From Corallococcus terminator (GTDB lineage: Bacteria > Myxococcota > Myxococcia > Myxococcales > Myxococcaceae), in NCBI RefSeq assembly GCF_003611635.1, contig NZ_RAVZ01000005.1:1-64000 (forward strand): a stretch of DNA of 64,000 nt, written 5' to 3'. Numbering within the stretch: position 1 is the first letter of the stretch; each line of letters opens with the position of its first letter. The notes beneath the pieces are model-generated. The model was not told where the DNA came from. It did not search any database and was given only the letters and a program-made list of their open reading frames with translations. Positions 14,516-25,292 of the stretch are shown piece by piece. Both the position numbers and the translations under genes were made by a program.

Positions 14516-14700
14516 TGGGCGCCACGCGCAGGCTGTGGGTGTACGCGTACGCGCGCCCGTGCGACATGCGCAAGTCCTGCGACACGTTGGCCGCGCTGGT
14601 GCCGACTCACCCAGCACGCACTCGCCGAACCTCTTCGTCAACGTCGCTCGCGACGGGCCCGGGCGGGGGCTTACCAGGTAGCCGTTCAGCTACCTGTCCG
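14512..14700 (+). pseudogene. IS66 tnpB fragment, frameshifted
   Basis: The frame opens with MMGATRRLWVYAYARPCDMR and continues KSCDTLAALV, a clear match to the N-terminus of IS66 TnpB (VDMRKSFDGLAALV type). Just after this the match jumps to another frame, where DSPSTHSPNLFVNVARD resembles the TnpB continuation (DP-SG-LFVFVNRRRD). So a frameshift lies near base 14598, and the rest of tnpB and all of tnpC are missing. Confidence 0.6.
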
Positions 14701-14787
14701 AGGCTCCACCGAAGAGGGATCCTCGCGCCGCTCTGAATCGAGCGCTGCAACCCAGCACCCTTGCCACGAATAAAGGAGTGGAGCCCC

Positions 14788-16314
14788 ATGCCGCTTACCG
14801 TCGCGCACCTTCATGCGACCTTGAAGTCTCGCCTGCCGCAATTCAGTGATCGTTTGTTCGGCCAGGCCGGCGACACCTTTGTCGGCGGTTGGGAGGAATA
14901 CCTTTTCGACACGCCACACGGTTGGTGGACCACGTCCAATCACGAGTTTCCCGACCGAGGACACTCGTCTCAGCCGGCCCGGGCCATGAAGGCCTGCATC
15001 GAGAAGGCGACGCACTCCATCGACATCGTCACGATGGACGAACCGACAGGGGACTTCCGTAAGAACGTCGAGGACGGTTTGATTGCCCTTGCCATGTCAG
15101 GGCGTCCCGTGACCGTTCGGTTCCTGCTAGGGCGCCAGGCCGGCGGCCCCAATCTGCACACGTGGATGATGCTCAAGCAACTGGCGGACCGAATCCGTCA
15201 GGCGGAGCCGCGAGCTTCGCGGTTGAACGTGTACCTGGCGCAATTCCGCTGGGAGTCGGCGTCCTGGAACCACGCCAAGCTCATCGCCATCGACGGCGGC
15301 GTGCTCATCACCGGCGGCCACAACATGTGGGACAGCCACTATCTCGCAAGGAACCCTGTCTTCGACATCTCCATGCGCTTCGACGGGGGCATCGCGAGGG
15401 GCGGCCACCGGTTCGCTGACGCCCTGTGGAACTTCGTCCGCGCCAACAATCGGCGCCCCCTGGCCGGCGCGACCTACTCCAACCACCTCAACCCGGACTT
15501 GGAGATCGATGAAAGCGCGCCGCCACCTCGCAGCGAGTCATTTGAGGCCGTCGCGGCCGATGCCTCACCCGCGGCCGATGCCTCCAACCGTTTCCCGGCA
15601 CTCTGGGTGGCGAGCCCCGGATGGGGGGTCTACACCGATCCCCGGGTCCTCGAAGGCGCCATGATGATCGCCCTCGTCGAGGGCCTGAAGCAGGCGAAGC
15701 AAAGCTGCAAGATGTCACTGCAGGACCTCGGCTCGCCTCACATGAGCGCCGTCGATTTCAAGACCTGGAGGCCGAGGGACTATCCTTTCGATCTGATTGG
15801 ATGTGGCGGCTCCTGGTTCATCCTGCCCCTCATCGACAATTTCGCGGAATTCCTGCATAGGAACGCCAGCGCTACACTGGAGATCATCTTGTCGGCGCCG
15901 ACCGATGGCGCCCACGGCTATGGTCACGGCGTCAAGCTGCAGACGATCTTGAACCTGCTGTCGCAGCGGATGAACGCCCAGTTCCAAACGTCCAAGAACG
16001 ACGCCCTGAAGATCCTGAACGAGCGCGTCTTCCTCAAGACCATCGCCTTCAGCGACGGCCGGGAAGCGTGGCGCGACGGGGCAAAAAAAGACAATCACGC
16101 CAAGTTCTGGATTCTGGACGACAAGATATGCCACGTCGGTTCGGACAATTGCTATCCCTACGTACAGGGTATCGGACAGGCCGCACTTCAAGAATTCGGT
16201 GTGATCGGGGAGTTCCCCCCTTCAGTCACAGACATGGTGATGGAGGGTTACTACAACCACGCGAGCCGACACGGCGTCCGCACGGACGCGAAGCTCGCTG
16301 ATTTGACCTGGTAG
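14788..16314 (+). CDS. phospholipase D superfamily protein
   Basis: A 508-residue protein with two PLD active-site motifs: NHAKLIAIDGGVLITGGHNM (about residues 165-184) and NHAKFWILDDKICHVGSDNC (about 435-454). Both keep the HxK and the trailing G(G/S)xN of the HKD family. No signal peptide is visible. Family members hydrolyse or transfer phosphodiesters in lipids or nucleic acids; some bacterial relatives are toxins or effectors. AAAGGAG lies 9 bases before the ATG. Codons use A/T in third position more than neighbours do, and an IS66 remnant lies just upstream, which hints at acquisition. Confidence 0.83.
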   Translation: MPLTVAHLHATLKSRLPQFSDRLFGQAGDTFVGGWEEYLFDTPHGWWTTSNHEFPDRGHSSQPARAMKACIEKATHSIDIVTMDEPTGDFRKNVEDGLIALAMSGRPVTVRFLLGRQAGGPNLHTWMMLKQLADRIRQAEPRASRLNVYLAQFRWESASWNHAKLIAIDGGVLITGGHNMWDSHYLARNPVFDISMRFDGGIARGGHRFADALWNFVRANNRRPLAGATYSNHLNPDLEIDESAPPPRSESFEAVAADASPAADASNRFPALWVASPGWGVYTDPRVLEGAMMIALVEGLKQAKQSCKMSLQDLGSPHMSAVDFKTWRPRDYPFDLIGCGGSWFILPLIDNFAEFLHRNASATLEIILSAPTDGAHGYGHGVKLQTILNLLSQRMNAQFQTSKNDALKILNERVFLKTIAFSDGREAWRDGAKKDNHAKFWILDDKICHVGSDNCYPYVQGIGQAALQEFGVIGEFPPSVTDMVMEGYYNHASRHGVRTDAKLADLTW

Positions 16315-16335
16315 GAGAGCTGACCGGGCGGAAAC

Positions 16336-16354
16336 CGGCCCCGCGACGGGGCCG
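16336..16354. terminator. hairpin between convergent genes
   Basis: CGGCCCCG (16336-16343) and CGGGGCCG (16347-16354) form an 8-bp stem with a 3-base loop, 21 bases after the phospholipase stop and upstream of the convergent LuxR gene end. It could act in both directions. Confidence 0.6.
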
Positions 16355-16412
16355 ACCTGCCAGCGGCGCTGGAGGACCCGCGCCGCTCAGGTGGAATCGG
16401 GTGGAGCTGAAC

Positions 16413-17219
16413 CTACCTGATCCAGAGTGCCATCAGCTCGGCGCGGCTCGACACCGCGAAGGCGCGATAGACGTGCTCGATGTACTTGTGCGTCGTGCGC
16501 AGGCTCAAGCCGGTGGACGCGGCGATCTGCTTCTCGCCGCGCCCGGTGAGGAGCTGTTCGAGGATGGAGCGGTGGCGCGGCGGCAAGCGGCTTCGGACAC
16601 CGCCCAGGCGCAGGCCCCCCTGTGCATCATGCTCCGGCTCCAGCCAGTTCCGGTAGCACCACGACGCGCTCCGGAACATCAACTCGAGCAGTTCGCGCTC
16701 GCGCTGGCCAAAGCGCCTCTCGCCCCAAGGGCGCACCGCCACGAAATAGGCCGCGGCTCCGGCGCCGAGCGGTACGGCGCTCACGAGGATGTCGTCGTAG
16801 CCCAGCCCGCGCCCCCATTCCGCGACGTGCGGGTGCGAGTACCACTCCTGGTCGGAGACCAGCTCCTCGCGACACGCGCTCCGCAAGCGACCGGCGCCCC
16901 GGGCGAAGGGGCCCCACATCGGGTGCTGGCGATACCCGGATTCGACAAGGTAGGCCCTTTGCCAGCGCAGGAGCGTGCTCTCGTCGACTCCGTGGACGTA
17001 CGAGTGGGTGATGATGGCGGCGTTATCGCGCGACGGCGGCGGCGGATCGCCCACGATACTCCACCACAGCACACCCGCACCGATGAGCGCGCCCGTGGAC
17101 TCCGTCAGGTGGCGGAGGGAAGCGTCGGGTCGGTGGTCGGCGCTGGAGATCTCGCCGAGCGCGCCAACAAACTGCGACACCGCACGGTAGTCTGCAATTG
17201 AGGGTCGCGACTTGCGCAT
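16413..17219 (-). CDS. LuxR-family transcriptional regulator
   Basis: A 268-residue regulator with a C-terminal LuxR/GerE helix-turn-helix: LPPRHRSILEQLLTGRGEKQ, then IAASTGLSLRTTHKYIEHVY (about residues 208-250). The N-terminal 200 residues look like a PAS/GAF-type or autoinducer-like sensing domain without a receiver aspartate, so it is not a response regulator. It is divergent from the six-gene operon that starts near 17427 and is the best local candidate for its regulator, though nothing in the sequence proves this. The ATG at 17219 was chosen at the start of plausible sequence. Confidence 0.85.
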   Translation of the reverse strand: MRKSRPSIADYRAVSQFVGALGEISSADHRPDASLRHLTESTGALIGAGVLWWSIVGDPPPPSRDNAAIITHSYVHGVDESTLLRWQRAYLVESGYRQHPMWGPFARGAGRLRSACREELVSDQEWYSHPHVAEWGRGLGYDDILVSAVPLGAGAAAYFVAVRPWGERRFGQRERELLELMFRSASWCYRNWLEPEHDAQGGLRLGGVRSRLPPRHRSILEQLLTGRGEKQIAASTGLSLRTTHKYIEHVYRAFAVSSRAELMALWIR

Positions 17220-17426
17220 GTTCAGCCGTACGATAACAAGCGTCAGGGCTCCGGAGAAACGGTCGCAGGAGCACGCCTCGCCCGAACCCGGCCGGAGGCG
17301 CCTCGGCTGTGCAGGGGGCTTCACACCCGTGTGCCAGGCGCTGCACGAAAGGCTGGGCGAGCGAGGTTGCGTCCGGGCGGGAGCGGGGCCTTCCCGGCTG
17401 GCCTCAAGGATGCATTGCTAACGCAC

Positions 17427-18482
17427 ATGGGCCGGGACCGAGCTGTTTCCCTGATGGACGACCTTCGCGCCGCCAACCCCAGCGAGCACACGCGCTGGCT
17501 GGCCGCGCCCGATGAGCCGGCCTTGCGCGAGCTGCTTCACGCGCGCTACGCGGAGACGTATTCCTACCCGCTCCTCTACGAGCCCGGCGGAGCCGTGCAG
17601 CTCTGGAAGGACGGGGCGCTGCTGAGCCTCGGCGAGTTCGACGCGCGGGGGGCGCTGCTGTGGCACACGGGCCTGTGGAGCAAGCCGGGGCGGGACTCGC
17701 TGGACTCGGGGCTCTCCGTGGCGCTGCCGAGCCGCCGCACCCTCATGGGCCGCGCCGAGCACGAGGCGCTGTGGGGCTCGCTGCTGGAGCGGCTCGGGCG
17801 CTGGGTGGGCTTCCTGCACCAGAACACCTCCACGCTGCACGTCATGGCGCAGCGCTACGCCTCGCGCTTCATGCGGGCGAGGCCCATGGGCCTCGTCGTC
17901 AACTACACGCGGGGCGAGACGGTGATTGGCGTGGAGGAGGGCTCGGGCGTGCCCATGCAGGCACTGGCGATGACGACGGTGCTCGCGCCCCCGCCGCCAC
18001 GCCGGCGCTACCTGCCCGAGGGCCCGTGGGGGGAGTGGCTCGCGTCCATCCTGGCCGGGGTGGGGCTCGCGGAGTCGGTGGCCTTCACGCCGCTGGAGCG
18101 CCGGGCATGGAGGCAGGGCGCCGTGCTGCGTCCGCTCGACTGGAACGCGTCGCTGCGTCTGGAGCGGCGGGGCCTCGTGGGATTCAGCGCGGAGGGCACC
18201 CCGGCGCTCACGTCGGAGCGGGCACGCGTGGACCTCATCCACCTGCCCATGGGCGAGCCCCAGCGGGTGGCCGAGGGGACGCCGGTGCTCCTCGCGGCCG
18301 GCTTTCTTCCGACGGGCATCCGCCTCCACCAGCGCGAGCCGGATGAACTCGTCTTCCAATACGTGGCGGACCCGAGGGCCGCGTGCGAAGTCGTGAGCCG
18401 CGCCCGGCTGGACGGCGCGCGGGCCCGGGAACTCTTCGCGGGATGGAGGGAGCGATGCGCGCGAACTTCGTGGACACGGTGA
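17427..18482 (+). CDS. GNAT-like acyltransferase, first gene of lipid operon
   Basis: A protein of 351 residues. The N-terminal part has the look of a GNAT domain: LHARYAETYSYPLLYEPGGA, then LWHTGLWSKPG and the acceptor region FLHQNTSTLHVMAQRYASRF followed by GLVVNYTRGE. The second half (about residues 200-351) is unrecognised. The start is uncertain: ATGs at 17427 and 17454 both lack a clear ribosome site. The 3' end overlaps the next gene by 28 bases. It may transfer an acyl or acetyl group in the pathway encoded downstream. Confidence in the gene is high, in the family moderate. Confidence 0.72.
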   Translation: MGRDRAVSLMDDLRAANPSEHTRWLAAPDEPALRELLHARYAETYSYPLLYEPGGAVQLWKDGALLSLGEFDARGALLWHTGLWSKPGRDSLDSGLSVALPSRRTLMGRAEHEALWGSLLERLGRWVGFLHQNTSTLHVMAQRYASRFMRARPMGLVVNYTRGETVIGVEEGSGVPMQALAMTTVLAPPPPRRRYLPEGPWGEWLASILAGVGLAESVAFTPLERRAWRQGAVLRPLDWNASLRLERRGLVGFSAEGTPALTSERARVDLIHLPMGEPQRVAEGTPVLLAAGFLPTGIRLHQREPDELVFQYVADPRAACEVVSRARLDGARARELFAGWRERCARTSWTR

Positions 18483-19729
18483 TGGCACGGCTGGACGGCG
18501 AGGTCGCCACCATCTGGGCCACGGTGCTGCTGCGGCTGGAGGACAGGCCCGACGTGGCGCTCCTGCACCGGGGGCTGCGCGCGCTGGTGCGGGAGAGCGA
18601 GCGCCTCAACGTGGCCTGGAACGACGCGCGCCGCGCATGGGTGCCCGCCGTGCGCGGGGACGCGGAGGTGGACGCGGCCCTGGTGCAAGGCGCGGAGCCC
18701 CTGTCCGAGCCCGACGCCGTAGCGCGAATCATCAACACGCGGGTGGACCTCACGCGCGACGTGCCGCTGCGGCTGCACTTGCATCCCATGGTGGACGCGG
18801 CCCAGGGGCCCTGGCTGCTGGGCATCCAGTTGCACCACGCCATCGGGGACGCGAAGGCGCTGGCGCACCTGCTGGAGCGGCTGTGGTTGCTCTGCGCGGG
18901 ACGCGGGTCGGAGTCGCGCCCGCTGGAGCCCTCGACGCTCACGGATGGCAAGGTGCTGCTCGCGGCGCTGCGCCAGCCGGGCGTGGTGCTGGGGCTCACG
19001 AGTCCGCGCCGGCGGCTCCTGGCGCAGCGGGGAATGGGGCTGCGCCGAAGTGGGGACACCGCCGGACACGCGCTATCGGCCACGGCGCGGCTCACGCTTC
19101 CCCAGGGCGACACGGACCTCCAGGCGTCGGAGGTCTTCTTCTGCGCGCTGCTCGCGGGCGTGGCGCTGCGAGAGTCCCCGGCGGACGGACTCATCCGCCT
19201 GCGCATGCCGGTGGACCTGCGGCGGATGCTGGGGCTCGGGCGGACGCTGGGCAATGGCTGCTCCACGGTGCCGATTGAGTTCTCCCTGAAGGAGGTCCGC
19301 GCCCGGCTGGAGGCCCCGCGCGAGCTTGCCCGCTTCCTCCGCTCCGAAGTGCAGCGGGTGCTCGATGAGGGCGTGCACTGGACGACGGCGCTGGAGTGCA
19401 TGGCGGTGGCCCGGCTCGCACCGGCGCGGGTGCTGCGCAAGAACGCGCGTCCCGGACTCATCGCCGAGCCCCGGACGAACACGCTCGTCGCCACCTACCT
19501 GGGACGGCTGGACAAGCACTTCACGCAGGCGCCGCTGCGCATCCGCTCCATGCGCAGCCACACGGCAACCTGGGGCGCCACCGGCCTGTCGTTCGCGGAC
19601 ACGCTCAACATCAGCACGGCGGCCTTCGAGGGCCTCTGGACGCGCGAGGAGTTGCGCGACTTCACGGAGCGCGTCGCCGGGTGGGCGTCCTCGGGCTTCG
19701 GCCTGCGGGCGGAGGTGCTCGCGCCATGA
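18455..19729 (+). CDS. condensation/wax-synthase-like acyltransferase
   Basis: A 424-residue protein of the CoA-dependent acyltransferase fold. The catalytic signature HHxxxD is present as LHHAIGDAKALAHLLERL (about residues 127-144). The N-terminus, LLRLEDRPDVALLHRGLRAL, matches the start of condensation and WS/DGAT domains; the second half contains LRMPVDLRRMLGLG and GNGCSTVPIEF. No carrier or adenylation domain is present, so this is a stand-alone enzyme that probably joins an acyl group to an alcohol or amine. GGAGGG lies 4 bases before the ATG. It overlaps genes on both sides. Confidence 0.8.
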   Translation: MRANFVDTVMARLDGEVATIWATVLLRLEDRPDVALLHRGLRALVRESERLNVAWNDARRAWVPAVRGDAEVDAALVQGAEPLSEPDAVARIINTRVDLTRDVPLRLHLHPMVDAAQGPWLLGIQLHHAIGDAKALAHLLERLWLLCAGRGSESRPLEPSTLTDGKVLLAALRQPGVVLGLTSPRRRLLAQRGMGLRRSGDTAGHALSATARLTLPQGDTDLQASEVFFCALLAGVALRESPADGLIRLRMPVDLRRMLGLGRTLGNGCSTVPIEFSLKEVRARLEAPRELARFLRSEVQRVLDEGVHWTTALECMAVARLAPARVLRKNARPGLIAEPRTNTLVATYLGRLDKHFTQAPLRIRSMRSHTATWGATGLSFADTLNISTAAFEGLWTREELRDFTERVAGWASSGFGLRAEVLAP

Positions 19730-20337
19730 TGGGGCTGCGCGAGGCGCCCGGGGTGTACCTGGGCTTCATCTGCCTGCACGTGCTCGCGGGGCACCTGGGC
19801 TCCAGCCTCGTCTACCGCCTGCGCTTCGGGCGCAGCCCGCTGGCCTACCGGAGCGCGGCGGCGGATTCCGCGCACACGCGCGTCACGCGGCGCATCTGTG
19901 GCGTCTCGCTGCTCTGGGCCGGCTCCGTGCTCGCGGCCGCGTTCTGGCCCGCGTGGTCCGCCATGCCCTGGGGACGGCCGCTGCTGCCGATTCCTCCGCT
20001 CGCGGGTTGGGTGCTCGGTGTCGTGGGGCTCATGGGCATGCTGTGGGCCCAGTATGGGATGGGCCCGGCGTTCCGCATCGGCGTGGACGCGGGGGAGGCC
20101 CGGCCCGAGTTGCACGAGGGGGGACTCCACCGCTACTCGCGCAACCCCATCTACGTGTTCTCCTACCTGTACCTCGTAGGGGCTTCGCTCTGGGCTCCGT
20201 CCGTGGTGACGCTGGGCGCCTGTGCGGCGCTCGGGGGGCTCTTCCATCAACTGGTGCTCCAGGAGGAGCGGTTCCTCGCGGACCGCCTCGGTGAGCCCTA
20301 CGCGCGCTATTGCCAGCGCGCACCTCGCTACTTCTGA
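19726..20337 (+). CDS. ICMT-like membrane methyltransferase
   Basis: A 203-residue integral membrane protein with about five hydrophobic segments. The C-terminal half carries the isoprenylcysteine carboxyl methyltransferase / phospholipid methyltransferase signature: YSRNPIYVFSYLYLVG (the RHP-Y-G region) and EERFLADRLGEPYARYCQRA ending PRYF. Such enzymes methylate carboxylates or amines at the membrane using SAM. ATGATG overlaps the previous stop by 4 bases, so translation is coupled. In this operon the likely acceptor is the fatty-acid-derived product. Confidence 0.85.
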   Translation: MMGLREAPGVYLGFICLHVLAGHLGSSLVYRLRFGRSPLAYRSAAADSAHTRVTRRICGVSLLWAGSVLAAAFWPAWSAMPWGRPLLPIPPLAGWVLGVVGLMGMLWAQYGMGPAFRIGVDAGEARPELHEGGLHRYSRNPIYVFSYLYLVGASLWAPSVVTLGACAALGGLFHQLVLQEERFLADRLGEPYARYCQRAPRYF

Positions 20338-20343
20338 CGCGCC

Positions 20344-21327
20344 ATGCAGCCAGCCCTCTTTCGTCCCGCTGATTCGCCCGGTGCCGCACCCCCGGAGCCC
20401 GGCCTCTCCCGCGCCGAGCTGGTGGAGTTGCTCCGCATCCGTCCTCCGCGCGCGGTGGGCATGGCGGCACTGCACCTGGGTGTCTGGGTCGCGGCGGCCG
20501 TGGCCATTGCCCACGCGGGCAGCGTCTGGGTGAAGCTGCCGCTGTGGATGCTGGCGGGTGGGGCGGTGATGGGGCTCATCCAGCTCGACCACGACGCGTG
20601 GCACGACACTCTCTTCCCGAGGCCGTGGCAGAACCGCCTCTTCGGCAACGCGCTCAGCCTGCTCGTGGGCATCGCCTACGAGCCCATGCGCCATGACCAC
20701 CTCGCGCACCACCGCTGGAACCGGACGCAGAAGGACCCTGACGCCTACAACGCGGGCCGCCGCTCGCTCGGGCTGTGCGCGCTCTTCTACGCCACCGTGC
20801 TGCTCGGCATCCCGCTGAGCCTCATCTACTTCAACGTCCTCTATCCGCTGCAGCACTTCTGCCGCGCGCGATTGCGCCGCCATGGCGCGGTGCTGCTCTG
20901 CTACGCGGGCTTCTACGCGGGGCTCTTCTGGCTGCTGTCGCGGCACGGGCTCGTCCCCGGCGCGGTGGAGTGCTGGCTGCTGCCGGTGCTCTTCGCCAGC
21001 CCCCTCAACGGCCTCAAGTCCATCGCGGACCACTATGCCAACACGTGGCGCGGGGACCGCTTCCACACCGCGACGACGGTGCGCGGCACGCGGCTCGTCA
21101 CCTTCCTCTGGAACGGGCTCAACTACCACCTGGACCACCACCTCTATCCGCGCGTGCCCGGCTACAACCTCGCGAGGCTGCACACCCACCTGCGCCCCGG
21201 GCTGCTCGCGCGCGGCGCCCCCGTCTTCGACAGCTACCTCGACGTCATGGGACGCGCGCTGCTCGCCGGGCCCACCGTCGTGGACGAGGACGTGCGGCTC
21301 GTCACCCTGGAACGAAAGCGCCCATGA
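20344..21327 (+). CDS. fatty acid desaturase (three-histidine-box)
   Basis: A 327-residue membrane di-iron desaturase/hydroxylase. All three histidine boxes are present: HDAWH (residues 83-87), HDHLAHH (about 117-123) and HLDHH in NYHLDHHLYPRVPGYNL near residue 262. Four hydrophobic segments lie between them. The eight-histidine pattern marks desaturases, hydroxylases and ketolases acting on acyl chains, sphingolipids or carotenoids. It starts 6 bases after the methyltransferase stop and its own stop overlaps the next ATG. Electron donors are not encoded nearby. Confidence 0.92.
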   Translation: MQPALFRPADSPGAAPPEPGLSRAELVELLRIRPPRAVGMAALHLGVWVAAAVAIAHAGSVWVKLPLWMLAGGAVMGLIQLDHDAWHDTLFPRPWQNRLFGNALSLLVGIAYEPMRHDHLAHHRWNRTQKDPDAYNAGRRSLGLCALFYATVLLGIPLSLIYFNVLYPLQHFCRARLRRHGAVLLCYAGFYAGLFWLLSRHGLVPGAVECWLLPVLFASPLNGLKSIADHYANTWRGDRFHTATTVRGTRLVTFLWNGLNYHLDHHLYPRVPGYNLARLHTHLRPGLLARGAPVFDSYLDVMGRALLAGPTVVDEDVRLVTLERKRP

Positions 21328-22553
21328 ACGCCCTGCGCAAGCTGTACGCGGACATCCGCTACGAGGACGGCCGCTGGCCGCTGTCCCGCTGGGACCTCAA
21401 CCTGCGCTACATCGCCAAGAGCCTCCTGCACGTCCCCGAGCCGCGCCGCACCGAGGACGTCGAGCACTTCGCGCGCGTCGCCCGGCACCTCGCCTCCGGG
21501 AGCTGGAAGCCCGACGCGCCCGCGGCGCTCAACCTGTGCGCCGTGGGCGATGTGATGTGGATTCGCAGCGGCTTCCGCGAGGCCCTCTCCCCGGGCGTGC
21601 GCGCGCTGATGGCGGACGCGCACGTGGCCTTCGCCAACCTGGAGACGCCCGTGGACCCGACGCGGCCCGTGCCCCGGCGCGTCTACGAGACGCTCCACTA
21701 CAACGCGCCGCCGGGCTACCTGGACGCGTGGGAGGGCACCGCGCGCCACCGCGTGTTCTCGCTGTGCAACAACCACGCGCTGGACCAGGGCGCGCAAGGG
21801 CTGGAGCGCACGCGCCAGAGCGTGCTGGCCCGCCCGGAGCACCGCTGCGTCGGAGGCCCCCGGGCGGAGGACGCGGTGGCGGGCCTGGAGGTGGCCGGGG
21901 TGCGCCTGGGCATCGCCGCGGTGACGTATGACATCAACCACCTCGCGGGGGCGCCGCCCGGGGGCGTTCCGGTGACGCGCCTGGGCAGCCCGCTGCATGC
22001 GCCCGACTGGGAGCGGCTGGGCGCCCTCATTGACGCGGCGCGCGCGGTGGGGCCGGACCTCGTGGTGCTCATGCCGCACTGGGGCTTCGAGTACGAGTAC
22101 TGGCCCGAGTCCCTCCAGCGCGAGCACGCCTACCGCCTCATCGAGCGCGGGGCGGACATCCTCCTGGGCTCCTCGCCGCACGTGCTGCAGCCCGTGGAGC
22201 TGGTCTCCATCGACGGCGGGGACCCCACGTGCCCCGCGCAGGTGCGCCGGGGAGGGCCGCCGCGAGTGGGGCTCATCGCGTACTCGCTCGGCAACTTCCT
22301 GAGCATCATGCCCACGCGGGCGTGCCAGACGGGCGCGGTGCTGAAGCTCGCGCTCGCGCGGGACGCGGGGGGCTCCCTGCGCCCCGTGGACGTGCGCGCG
22401 GTGCCCACGGCGTGCGGGCGGGGCCTGGGCGGCGAGGGCTTCCTGGACGCGGGGGTCGTGGCGGTGGACGAGCTGGGCCTGGAGCGCGCGGCGCCGCACC
22501 TCGCGCACGCGTGGCGCACCCTGGGCGGACTGATTTCAACCCGGAGGGACTGA
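21324..22553 (+). CDS. CapA-family metallophosphatase-like protein
   Basis: A 409-residue protein of the PGA_cap/CapA family (calcineurin-like fold). The landmarks are LCAVGDVMWIRSG, VAFANLETPVDPTR, FSLCNNHALDQGAQGLERTR, VVLMPHWGFEYEYWP and GSSPHVLQPVEL, which together supply the Asp, Asn and His metal ligands. No signal peptide or membrane anchor is seen, unlike CapA of capsule operons, so it is probably a cytosolic phosphatase. ATGA overlap couples it to the desaturase. It could remove a phosphate or protecting group in the pathway; that is inference. Confidence 0.85.
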   Translation: MNALRKLYADIRYEDGRWPLSRWDLNLRYIAKSLLHVPEPRRTEDVEHFARVARHLASGSWKPDAPAALNLCAVGDVMWIRSGFREALSPGVRALMADAHVAFANLETPVDPTRPVPRRVYETLHYNAPPGYLDAWEGTARHRVFSLCNNHALDQGAQGLERTRQSVLARPEHRCVGGPRAEDAVAGLEVAGVRLGIAAVTYDINHLAGAPPGGVPVTRLGSPLHAPDWERLGALIDAARAVGPDLVVLMPHWGFEYEYWPESLQREHAYRLIERGADILLGSSPHVLQPVELVSIDGGDPTCPAQVRRGGPPRVGLIAYSLGNFLSIMPTRACQTGAVLKLALARDAGGSLRPVDVRAVPTACGRGLGGEGFLDAGVVAVDELGLERAAPHLAHAWRTLGGLISTRRD

Positions 22554-22554
22554 G

Positions 22555-23163
22555 ATGGCGTCGATGCGGGAGCAGTTGGAGGCACTCACCGTGGGCATGG
22601 CCCGGCAGGTCGCGGGCTGGCTGCCGGCCGTGACGCCCGAGCGGTACGTGGCCTTCCTGGACATGATGTACCACTACACGCTGCGCAGTGGAGACCGGCT
22701 GCGGCTCGCGGCCGAGCGCGCCACGCGCCCCGAGCTGAAGGCCTTCTTCGCGGAGCTCGCGGCGGACGAGCAGTCCCACTACCAGCTCGCGAAGGCGGAC
22801 CTCGCGGCCTTCGGGCGCACGCCGTCGGACGCCACGCCCCGCGAGGTCTCCGCGTTCCACGCCTTCTGGGAAGGCATCCCGGCGGAGCGCCAGCTCTCGT
22901 TCCTCGGCGCGCTGTACGTGCTGGAGGGCGTGGCGCGGCACCTCGGGGGCGACACACGCCAGGGGTTGGGGCGGCTCGGCCTGGACAGGACGCGGGCGCG
23001 CTTCCTGCTCGTGCACCTGGACGTGGACGTGGAGCACGGCGCGCGGGCCCAGGCGCTCTGCGAGTCGCTCGGTGCGCACGGCCCCGAGCCCCTGCTGGAC
23101 GGCGCGCGCCAGGCGGCGGACTTCTGGGTGGCCATCCATCGCCGGGCGCTCGCGGAGGCATAG
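22555..23163 (+). CDS. heme-oxygenase-like di-iron oxidase
   Basis: A 202-residue all-helical protein of the heme-oxygenase-like di-metal oxidase (HDO) superfamily. A full candidate ligand set is visible: E72-x2-H75 in ADEQSHYQ, E124 in LYVLEGVARH, and H154-x3-D158-x2-H161 in HLDVDVEHGARA. This matches the pattern known from UndA, CADD and related N-oxygenases and decarboxylases. UndA converts fatty acids to terminal alkenes; others oxidise amines. It begins one base after the CapA-like stop, with GGAGGG 6 bases upstream, and ends the operon. The substrate is unknown, but the operon points to a fatty acyl compound. Confidence 0.8.
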   Translation: MASMREQLEALTVGMARQVAGWLPAVTPERYVAFLDMMYHYTLRSGDRLRLAAERATRPELKAFFAELAADEQSHYQLAKADLAAFGRTPSDATPREVSAFHAFWEGIPAERQLSFLGALYVLEGVARHLGGDTRQGLGRLGLDRTRARFLLVHLDVDVEHGARAQALCESLGAHGPEPLLDGARQAADFWVAIHRRALAEA

Positions 23164-23410
23164 ACCGGGCCCCCGCAGGCCAGCCAGGGTCGAGCCCCTC
23201 CCCGAGTCTGGGCTGTCACCGTCCGGCCAACGACGTGCCGGAGGGCTTGAAGGCGGACGGACGTCGTGCTCGACGAGCGGCACGACGGATGGAGACGCGA
23301 GGCGGAGGGAATGCGCGGCGTCAGGAAAGGTTTCCACCGCGCGTACCCCGCACGCCGCGCCTCGCCCAACCACGCTTCAAAGGGCCTACAAGACCTCGTG
23401 GGTCTTGCTC

Positions 23411-23428
23411 GCGGACACGCTCTAGACG
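23411..23428. repeat. left arm of 18-bp inverted repeat
   Basis: GCGGACACGCTCTAGACG is the exact reverse complement of 24361-24378. The arm contains the TAG stop codon of the SRPBCC gene. The two arms enclose the ArsR/SRPBCC pair. Confidence 0.85.
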
Positions 23429-23925
23429 CCCAGGGCGACGAGTAGCTCGTCCAACTGCTCGAACGTCTCGCCCATCCCACAGGTGCTCCCGGAGGCGATG
23501 GCACCGTCGAGAGCTTCCTTCGAGGGATAGAGGTCGTGCACGACGACCCGCGTCTTGCCGCCTTTCTCTTCGAAGGTCACCGTGGTGACGGCCCCCTCCG
23601 CACTTTCCTCATTCGTCCAGGCGAGGCGCGAGTGCGGCGTCACTTCGATGTACTTACCGAAGAACGCCATCGGCTGCTCCGAGGCAGGGTGGCCGAACAC
23701 GAAACGGTACGTGCCCCCGACACGAACATCGGCCTCGCAGGAAATGAAGGCAATCCCAAACGACTTCGGTGCCCACCACCGCTTGAGCAGCTCGGGCGTG
23801 GTCCACGCCTCGAAAATGATGCGCGCCGGGCCGTTGACGGTTCGCGTGACGACGAGCTCGCGGTCGGATTTCCGCTCCGTCGTTGTGACGTTCTTCACGG
23901 GTTCACTCTCACTTCTTGCGTCCAT
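23422..23925 (-). CDS. SRPBCC (AHSA1-like) domain protein
   Basis: A 167-residue SRPBCC protein, paralogous to the gene at 439-939. The motifs are VNGPARIIFEAWTTPELLKR, WWAPKSF and ADVRVGGTYRFVF, with the end GMGETFEQLDELLVA. It starts inside the preceding arsR (17-base overlap). Its stop codon lies within one arm of the 18-bp inverted repeat, so the repeat may have supplied the end of the gene. The ligand is unknown. Confidence 0.88.
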   Translation of the reverse strand: MDARSESEPVKNVTTTERKSDRELVVTRTVNGPARIIFEAWTTPELLKRWWAPKSFGIAFISCEADVRVGGTYRFVFGHPASEQPMAFFGKYIEVTPHSRLAWTNEESAEGAVTTVTFEEKGGKTRVVVHDLYPSKEALDGAIASGSTCGMGETFEQLDELLVALGV

Positions 23926-24268
23926 TGACCTTCTCCTTTTGTTTCAGTTCCTCGACAACCTTGTCTAACTCATCGAAGCGTGAGGCCCAGAGCTGGCGGT
24001 ACCTCTCGAGCCACGCCGTCTCTTCTTCCAGTTGGAGTGGCCCGAGCTTGCAGGTCCGCACGCGCCCGACCTTCATGGTGGCGACGAGCCCGGCCTGCTC
24101 CAAGACGCCGACGTGCTTCTTCATGCCCGTGAGGGTCATGTGGAACTTCTCGGCGAGGTCCGTGATCGAAGCGTCTGAACGTCCGAGCTGCTCCAGGATG
24201 CCGCGTCGGGTCGCGTCCGAGAGCGCGGCGAACGAGGCATTGAGGCGGGCACCTGGATGCTGAACCAT
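23909..24268 (-). CDS. ArsR-family transcriptional regulator
   Basis: A 119-residue winged-helix regulator: FAALSDATRRGILEQLGRSD, then the recognition helix region HMTLTGMKKHVGVLEQAGLV and wing KVGRVRTCKLG. The C-terminus (ETAWLERYRQLWASRFDELD) matches regulators paired with AHSA1 proteins. It is the first gene of a two-gene unit with the SRPBCC gene. It differs clearly from the first ArsR of the window, so this is not a recent duplication. The start at 24268 is the only ATG near the start of homology. Confidence 0.9.
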   Translation of the reverse strand: MVQHPGARLNASFAALSDATRRGILEQLGRSDASITDLAEKFHMTLTGMKKHVGVLEQAGLVATMKVGRVRTCKLGPLQLEEETAWLERYRQLWASRFDELDKVVEELKQKEKVNGRKK

Positions 24269-24360
24269 GTGGTGCAGTATTGTCGCGCGATCTGGCGGAA
24301 TGCAAGGGGGAGGCGCCAGGCCGTGCTCGCCGTGGGCTTGGAGCTCAAAGACCGGGGCCG

Positions 24361-24378
24361 CGTCTAGAGCGTGTCCGC
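24361..24378. repeat. right arm of 18-bp inverted repeat
   Basis: CGTCTAGAGCGTGTCCGC, the perfect reverse complement of 23411-23428, lies between the arsR start and the 3' end of lysR. Each arm contains CTAG, a target used by some IS5-type elements, next to AGCGTGTCCGC. The arms could be relics of IS ends. Confidence 0.85.
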
Positions 24379-24386
24379 AAGGGACT

Positions 24387-25292
24387 TCACACGGCCTTGA
24401 TGGACAGCTCACGTGCCGCTTCGACGAAGAGGCGCAGTGGCCCGGAGCGCCGCGCGCGGCTGGGGAAGTAGAGGAAGAGTCCGGGAACGGTGGGCGCGTA
24501 CGCCTCGAGCACCACCTTCAGCCGTCCGGTGCGCAGTTGCTCCTGCACCTGTGGTTCGAATGCGTACGTGAGCCCGGCGCCTGCCTCGGCCAGGGACAGC
24601 ATCACGTGGCCGTCGTTGGTGACGACGCCCCCGCGCACCGGCACGCGCCAGTTCCTGCGGCCGCGCTCCAACTCCCAGGCGTAGATCGTCCCGCTCGTCT
24701 GCGAACGGTAGGCGATGCATTCGTGGCGCAGGAGGTCCTCGGGCTTCTGGGGCGTCCCGTGGCGTTCGAGGTAGCTGGGGGCGCCCACCACCACGAAGCG
24801 GAAGGCCTCGGTGAGACGCACCTGCACCATGTCGCGCTCGATGGCTTCGGTCAGCCGCACGCCCGCGTCGTAGCCCTCCGCCACGATGTCCACGAAGCGG
24901 TCCTCGACGACGACCTCCACCTCCACTCGCGGGTGTCGCTCGCGGAAGGCGGGAAGCACGGGTGTGATGACGAAGGGCACCGCCATCTGGGGGGTCGACA
25001 GGCGCAACCGGCCCACCGCCTCGCCCGGCTGGGCGGACGCGGTGGTCAGGGCCGCCTCCAGTTGACGGAGCCCCGGGCCCGCCTCCTCCACGAGGCGCCT
25101 CCCCGCATCCGTCAGCGCCACGCTGCGGGTCGTGCGCGTGAACAGCACCACGCGCAGTTGCTCCTCAAGCTGCTTCACCGCCTGGCTCACGGCGGATCTG
25201 GAGACGCTCAGCTCGTTCGCCGCGCCGCTGAAGCTCCGATGGCGCGCCACGGACAGAAACGCCTGGAGCTGTGGGAATGGAACCGTGTTCAT
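24387..25292 (-). CDS. LysR-family transcriptional regulator
   Basis: A 301-residue LysR regulator. The N-terminal helix-turn-helix is LQAFLSVARHRSFSGAANEL, then SVSRSAVSQAVKQLEEQL. The C-terminal substrate-binding domain starts about residue 90 (GRLRLSTPQMAVPFVITPVL). It is divergent from the aldo/keto reductase-SDR operon, the usual place for a LysR controlling its target. Two dyads lie in the shared gap (25413-25427 and 25442-25455). A purine-rich AAGGTGGGG precedes the chosen ATG. Relatives respond to oxidants or aromatic compounds; the ligand here is unknown. Confidence 0.93.
   Translation of the reverse strand: MNTVPFPQLQAFLSVARHRSFSGAANELSVSRSAVSQAVKQLEEQLRVVLFTRTTRSVALTDAGRRLVEEAGPGLRQLEAALTTASAQPGEAVGRLRLSTPQMAVPFVITPVLPAFRERHPRVEVEVVVEDRFVDIVAEGYDAGVRLTEAIERDMVQVRLTEAFRFVVVGAPSYLERHGTPQKPEDLLRHECIAYRSQTSGTIYAWELERGRRNWRVPVRGGVVTNDGHVMLSLAEAGAGLTYAFEPQVQEQLRTGRLKVVLEAYAPTVPGLFLYFPSRARRSGPLRLFVEAARELSIKAV

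Follow-up and report, generated by a model that had tools for sequence, protein, structure and literature searches.

A compact six-gene operon exchanged among Myxococcaceae and its possible role in the synthesis of a lipid-like metabolite

The stretch of DNA analysed here (the window) comprises 64,000 nt of Corallococcus terminator, positions 1 to 64,000 of contig NZ_RAVZ01000005.1. It carries six closely packed genes, here called A to F, which form an operon-like block that is inherited as one set and has been exchanged as a unit among Myxococcaceae. We give a probability of roughly 0.5 to the reading that this exchanged unit directs the synthesis of a small secondary metabolite, which is most probably lipid-like. 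The simplest product would most likely be a small acylated, methylated and oxidised compound, and there are about even odds that it is of fatty-acid origin. The biosynthetic role is inferred from the families to which the six proteins belong.

The six open frames fill positions 17427-23163, all on the plus strand, and bear out an initial annotation of the window that had described six packed same-strand genes (Table 1). From A to F, they are joined, as described there, by a 28-base overlap, an ATGA overlap, a gap of 6 bases, a second ATGA overlap and a gap of 1 base. In 23 relatives, the ATGA between D and E and a gap of 1-2 bases between E and F are kept. The overlap between A and B takes two forms in these relatives, 28 bases in 4 and 19 in 19, because a late codon of A is either TGG or TAG. 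Recoding was considered for this in-frame TAG and rejected, as it is a plain stop placed a few codons earlier. From the sequence layout, A to F most likely form one transcription unit read as a single transcript. In the leader upstream of A, no sigma-70-like site was found, and a program search detected no inverted repeats there. Family searches also identified no polyketide synthase (PKS), nonribosomal peptide synthetase (NRPS), ligase or carrier among the six genes, as had been claimed.

Table 1. Coordinates of the operon and its boundaries in the window.
Feature	Position	Strand	Basis
Conserved leader, presumed promoter and 5′ leader	17295..17426	+	Flank comparison; homology with G067 copy starts at 17295
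Gene A, 351 aa, without known family; second half with GNAT-like element order, low confidence	17427..18482	+	
Gene B, 424 aa, stand-alone condensation/PapA-like acyltransferase	18455..19729	+	Invariant HHAIGD
Gene C, 202 aa, PEMT/ICMT-type membrane methyltransferase	19729..20337 (alternative ATG 19726)	+	PF04191; invariant RNPIY and EE
Gene D, 327 aa, fatty-acid-desaturase-family protein	20344..21327	+	PF00487; three histidine boxes
Gene E, 409 aa, CapA/PGA_cap-type protein	21324..22553	+	PF09587; conserved residues; PDB relatives
Gene F, 202 aa, heme-oxygenase-like dimetal oxidase	22555..23163	+	PF14518; invariant ligands; fold match
Short tail common to some clade-1 relatives; right edge of exchanged unit at about 23211-23231	23164..23231	.	

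Evidence that these genes belong together comes from their distribution. Among 145 genomes of the order, gene A is present in 27, which represent six genera of Myxococcaceae and include 14 of the 16 sampled Corallococcus genomes. A to F are colinear on one contig in 24 of the 27, the window's own genome included, whereas the other 3 have the block either interrupted or spread over more than one contig. Synteny in relatives, on which the initial annotation had staked its operon, is therefore extensive: gene order and overlaps are conserved, and every intact copy is colinear. All six genes are under purifying selection, with ratios of nonsynonymous to synonymous substitution (dN/dS) of 0.17-0.49 within clade 1 and against the two other lineages. 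Colinearity in every intact copy, combined with purifying selection on all six genes, places this arrangement far beyond chance.

The survey for homologues took in five of the genes (A, B and D to F), with profile searches for B, D, E and F over 195 genomes of the phylum. These searches returned essentially the same genomes as gene A, followed by a steep fall in score. The weakest full-length copy and the best other match were separated by 829 and 32 bits for B, 668 and 65 for D, 863 and 116 for E, and 392 and 29 for F. Because of this drop, close relatives of the four genes are found only in the block, and the close homologues of gene A are likewise confined to it in the genomes surveyed. A pattern scan that covered 84,980 species of bacteria and archaea, each represented by a single genome, matched gene A only in Corallococcus, Myxococcus, Pyxidicoccus, Archangium, Hyalangium and one metagenome-assembled genome of Myxococcaceae; the scan requires exact short peptides, so that distant relatives may escape it. 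One similarity to gene A in another genome (G022, E 8e-4) was set aside as spurious, since it lies in a low-complexity, antisense-like frame and the other five genes are absent there. On plasmids, genes A and B had no match, and no similar gene set surrounds the plasmid-borne relatives of F and E in Vibrio, Bradyrhizobium and Mesorhizobium. Gene A was also unmatched in a group of genomes of 9.0-9.5 Mb (g19), the size class of M. xanthus. This absence may explain why work on the model species has not come across the operon.

The copies of the operon fall into three lineages, and their identity is incongruent with that of gyrB, the one housekeeping gene used as a control. For example, the window and an Archangium genome (G046) share 98.2% DNA identity over the block and 85.2% in gyrB. 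A similar relation is seen with G104, of the genus group that includes the Myxococcus and Pyxidicoccus matches (97.6% in the block, 87.6% in gyrB). The pattern is reversed between two Corallococcus genomes, G059 and G069, with 98.0% in gyrB and 83.0% in the block. In most pairs of relatives, the DNA held in common extends beyond the block by no more than about 110-150 bp on the side of A and by at most about 70 bp after F. Members of clade 1 have this leader in common even where the surrounding sites are unrelated. Thus, the block is horizontally exchanged as a unit, and this unit is most likely a segment of roughly 5.9 kb that passes from Myxococcaceae to Myxococcaceae. This goes beyond the initial annotation, which was a reading of a single sequence, as does the location of the set in many different places. 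A clean empty site was not found, the flanks of both the window and G070 being mosaic, and the genes annotated at the edges of the cluster in the window include no transposase or integrase.

Comparison of the flanks also bears on a LuxR gene that adjoins the operon on the minus strand (16413-17324). The initial annotation had noted this regulator as divergent from the operon. It is indeed present, but it is not a linked member of the unit. The left flank, 14675-17297, which carries a PLD gene and the LuxR gene, is found with 97% identity in contig C366 of another species (G067) without the operon, and this identity stops at 17297. G067 also has a copy of the cluster, and homology between it and the cluster of the window starts at 17295. 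The LuxR flank and the operon leader therefore meet at a junction, and the regulator is part of the recipient chromosome. Beside the operon it is absent in 22 of 23 relatives, and the remaining one has a weak partial match 2.6 kb away. LuxR was rejected as the cluster regulator on these grounds, although it may act on the operon promoter through its position.

Several features of the surroundings were seen along the way. In four clade-2 loci (L043, L045, L046 and L048), a tRNA-Arg(CCT) gene lies within a few hundred bases downstream of F and is a possible integration hotspot. An AHSA1/ArsR-like gene pair (window 23422-24412) follows the cluster in the window and precedes it in L041, L042 and partly L038, and its relative orientation in these related genomes is opposite to that in the window. 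Given this difference in placement, either one neighbourhood received the cluster on two occasions or an inversion of the cluster took place. Two adjoining short repeats of about 110 and 85 bp occupy 23215-23410 at the right edge; they occur in many copies in Corallococcus genomes, with at least 8 further places in the window's own genome, and are possible mobile or REP-like elements. In G067 there appear to be two copies of the cluster, both damaged (L056 and L170, on contigs C338 and C568), one with a frameshift in gene A and the other with about 3 kb replacing window 18391-19013. Both contigs end at the same point, window 19642. In G057, a 189-bp fragment of gene E (L169:5415-5603, 93% identical) lies about 7 kb past the end of the intact cluster and is a remnant of a second copy.

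Among the encoded proteins, the oxidase F is the best defined. It passes the curated cut-off of PF14518 (73 bits, E 3e-20), and its predicted model (pLDDT 85) finds 3dde, TenA and CADD as the closest structures in Foldseek, with BesC and UndA lower. Six residues, E72, H75, E124, H154, D158 and H161, are invariant across the copies. Heme-oxygenase-like dimetal oxidases (HDOs) use a set of three histidine and three carboxylate ligands (3His/3carboxylate; PMC13108848), and MboA has the same ExxH and HxxxD pattern (PMC13185094). The six residues fit a complete set of this kind, as assigned by sequence pattern rather than by geometry. The initial annotation had named F a heme-oxygenase-like oxidase with a complete ligand set, and the domain, fold match and ligands agree with it. 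Sequence and model together support membership of F in the HDOs, with a predicted dimetal cofactor and a predicted reaction with O2. F shares its predicted fold and the complete ligand set with UndA, BesC, CADD, AetD, PolF and MboA, but it has no close sequence match to the characterised enzymes, the best NCBIfam score being 15.1 of 200 bits for CADD. To our knowledge, none of these six HDOs is accompanied by a desaturase-family enzyme, a PEMT/ICMT-type methyltransferase and a CapA-type protein.

The two membrane proteins are also assigned to known families. D scores 118.6 bits against a PF00487 cut-off of 29.7 and has three invariant histidine boxes (H83/H87, H119/H122/H123 and H262/H265/H266), features which it shares with GntB, CrtR and DesA of the membrane fatty-acid desaturase superfamily. 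The desaturase family predicted for D is thus supported, and its action on an acyl chain is putative. C had been described as an ICMT-like membrane methyltransferase, and the PEMT/ICMT type is supported by PF04191 (39.8 bits; cut-off 25), with RNPIY and EE invariant across copies. In the NCBIfam model for isoprenylcysteine methyltransferase, NF040696, C stays below the equivalog cut-off (33 of 160 bits).

E was proposed to be a soluble CapA-like phosphatase. Its place in the CapA family holds, with 144 bits against a PF09587 (PGA_cap) cut-off of 27 and conserved D76, N105, E107, N150, H151, H252, H286 and N324 as candidate metal and catalytic residues. The phosphatase activity does not follow, as only distant family relatives were found. 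Its relatives of solved structure in the PDB, 8gq9 and sister entries, are named capsule biosynthesis proteins; we regard them as structures of MslH, an epimerase of lasso peptides. The only NCBIfam match of E is the MslH model NF038314, at 28 of 700 bits and below the equivalog cut-off. E shares the PGA_cap domain with CapA and MslH, but capsule genes are missing from the set of six, as are a lasso precursor and the protease and cyclase of such peptides.

B and A are the candidate acyltransferases. The HHxxxD motif of B is invariant (H127, H128, A, I, G, D132), and PapA_C matched weakly in two members, so that the earlier description as a stand-alone HHxxxD acyltransferase is retained in the form of a condensation/PapA-like protein with weak scores. 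Like PapA-type enzymes, B is free-standing, but it has no associated PKS and its match to PF00668 is sub-threshold. For A, the proposed GNAT-like identity could not be upheld, given the lack of a family match and a weak model (pLDDT 50), in which a GNAT-like order of elements appears only in the second half. Neither the PDB by sequence nor Foldseek gave a significant match. The sequence pattern of A may resemble that of tandem-GNAT proteins. A relation to HATPase-GNAT fusions found no support among the loci examined.

From these families a route can be drawn. A and/or B would join an activated acyl chain, an acyl-CoA or acyl-acyl carrier protein (acyl-ACP) from primary metabolism, to a small amine or alcohol, both donors and acceptor being supplied by the host. 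Drawing on primary metabolism would explain why the operon has neither a ligase nor a carrier. Of the two membrane enzymes, D would desaturate or hydroxylate the product and C would methylate it. One more reaction with O2, for instance C-C cleavage, desaturation or N-oxidation, may fall to the soluble F, and a hydrolysis or epimerisation to E. By analogy, an N-acyl amino acid or methyl ester backbone would fit the lack of a ligase and carrier. The operon is conceptually like the N-acyl amino acid synthase FeeM and the N-acyl amino acid methyl ester systems in its presumed ligase-free acyl transfer and methylation, but no relation of A to FeeM is supported, since A matches no Pfam or NCBIfam model. 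The preserved motifs of proteins B to F and the patchy distribution, which is typical of secondary metabolism, count for a pathway of this kind.

Several observations weigh against it. The unit contains no transporter, self-resistance gene or dedicated regulator. A has no family match in Pfam (13 members), NCBIfam (window protein) or PADLOC, and the window's B reaches only 16.3 bits of the 30.6 required by PF00668, with E 4e-7 for the best member. D is about equally far from the arginine hydroxylase GntB, the carotenoid hydroxylase CrtR and the lipid desaturase DesA, and the fold relatives of F include enzymes of amino-acid and cofactor chemistry.

These last points lead to the best-surviving alternative, which we consider possible but clearly less probable, that the product is a small modified amino acid or peptide. 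D would be a GntB-like hydroxylase, F an oxidase like BesC, PolF or MboA, and E an MslH-like epimerase or hydrolase, with A and B acylating the product, perhaps as a protecting group. Indeed, GntB is the best NCBIfam match of D (46.9 bits), MslH is the only one of E, and HDOs with assigned function act mostly on amino acids, MboA having a ligand pattern like that of F (PMC13185094). However, these matches fall far below the equivalog cut-offs (46.9 of 380 and 28 of 700 bits), and the membrane methyltransferase C and the membrane-type family of D favour a hydrophobic substrate. A peptide precursor or NRPS is also missing from the unit. Alternatively, the operon may remodel membrane or envelope lipids of the host by desaturation, methylation and acyl transfer, without a free secondary metabolite. 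C does belong to the phospholipid-methyltransferase family PF04191 and D to a desaturase family, and PapA-type transferases such as B use lipids. This seems improbable, as neither of the soluble proteins F and E is known to take part in remodelling bulk lipids and a patchy, exchanged distribution is unusual for envelope upkeep. It is very unlikely that the block is a mobile island of defence or competition whose enzymes act on foreign targets rather than in a pathway: the variable position, the horizontal exchange and the tRNA-Arg(CCT) gene would suit such an island, but none of the six proteins has a PADLOC match and at least five of the six belong to small-molecule enzyme families.

For the preferred reading, a metabolite pathway, no named precedent with this set of genes was described in the open-licence literature searched, where absence is weak evidence; the same lack had been noted from the sequence. 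Every enzyme except A falls in a known family, and it is the combination, the exclusive linkage and the exchange as a unit that are new to us. Tentatively, and with more doubt than confidence, such a self-contained exchanged pathway without a classical core enzyme could lead to a new class of natural product, with an undescribed chemistry of F and with A as founder of an unrecognised family. The operon is a compact orphan pathway, with six genes in less than 6 kb, members of two iron-oxygenase families, one protein outside any known family and nothing that mining by rules would recognise as a core enzyme, so that rule-based cluster finders would probably overlook it. Its small size would make deletion and heterologous expression straightforward and the product findable. 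Its presence in 14 of 16 Corallococcus genomes points to a benefit in the predatory lifestyle. If the product is new, surveys of myxobacteria based on core enzymes miss part of their chemistry.

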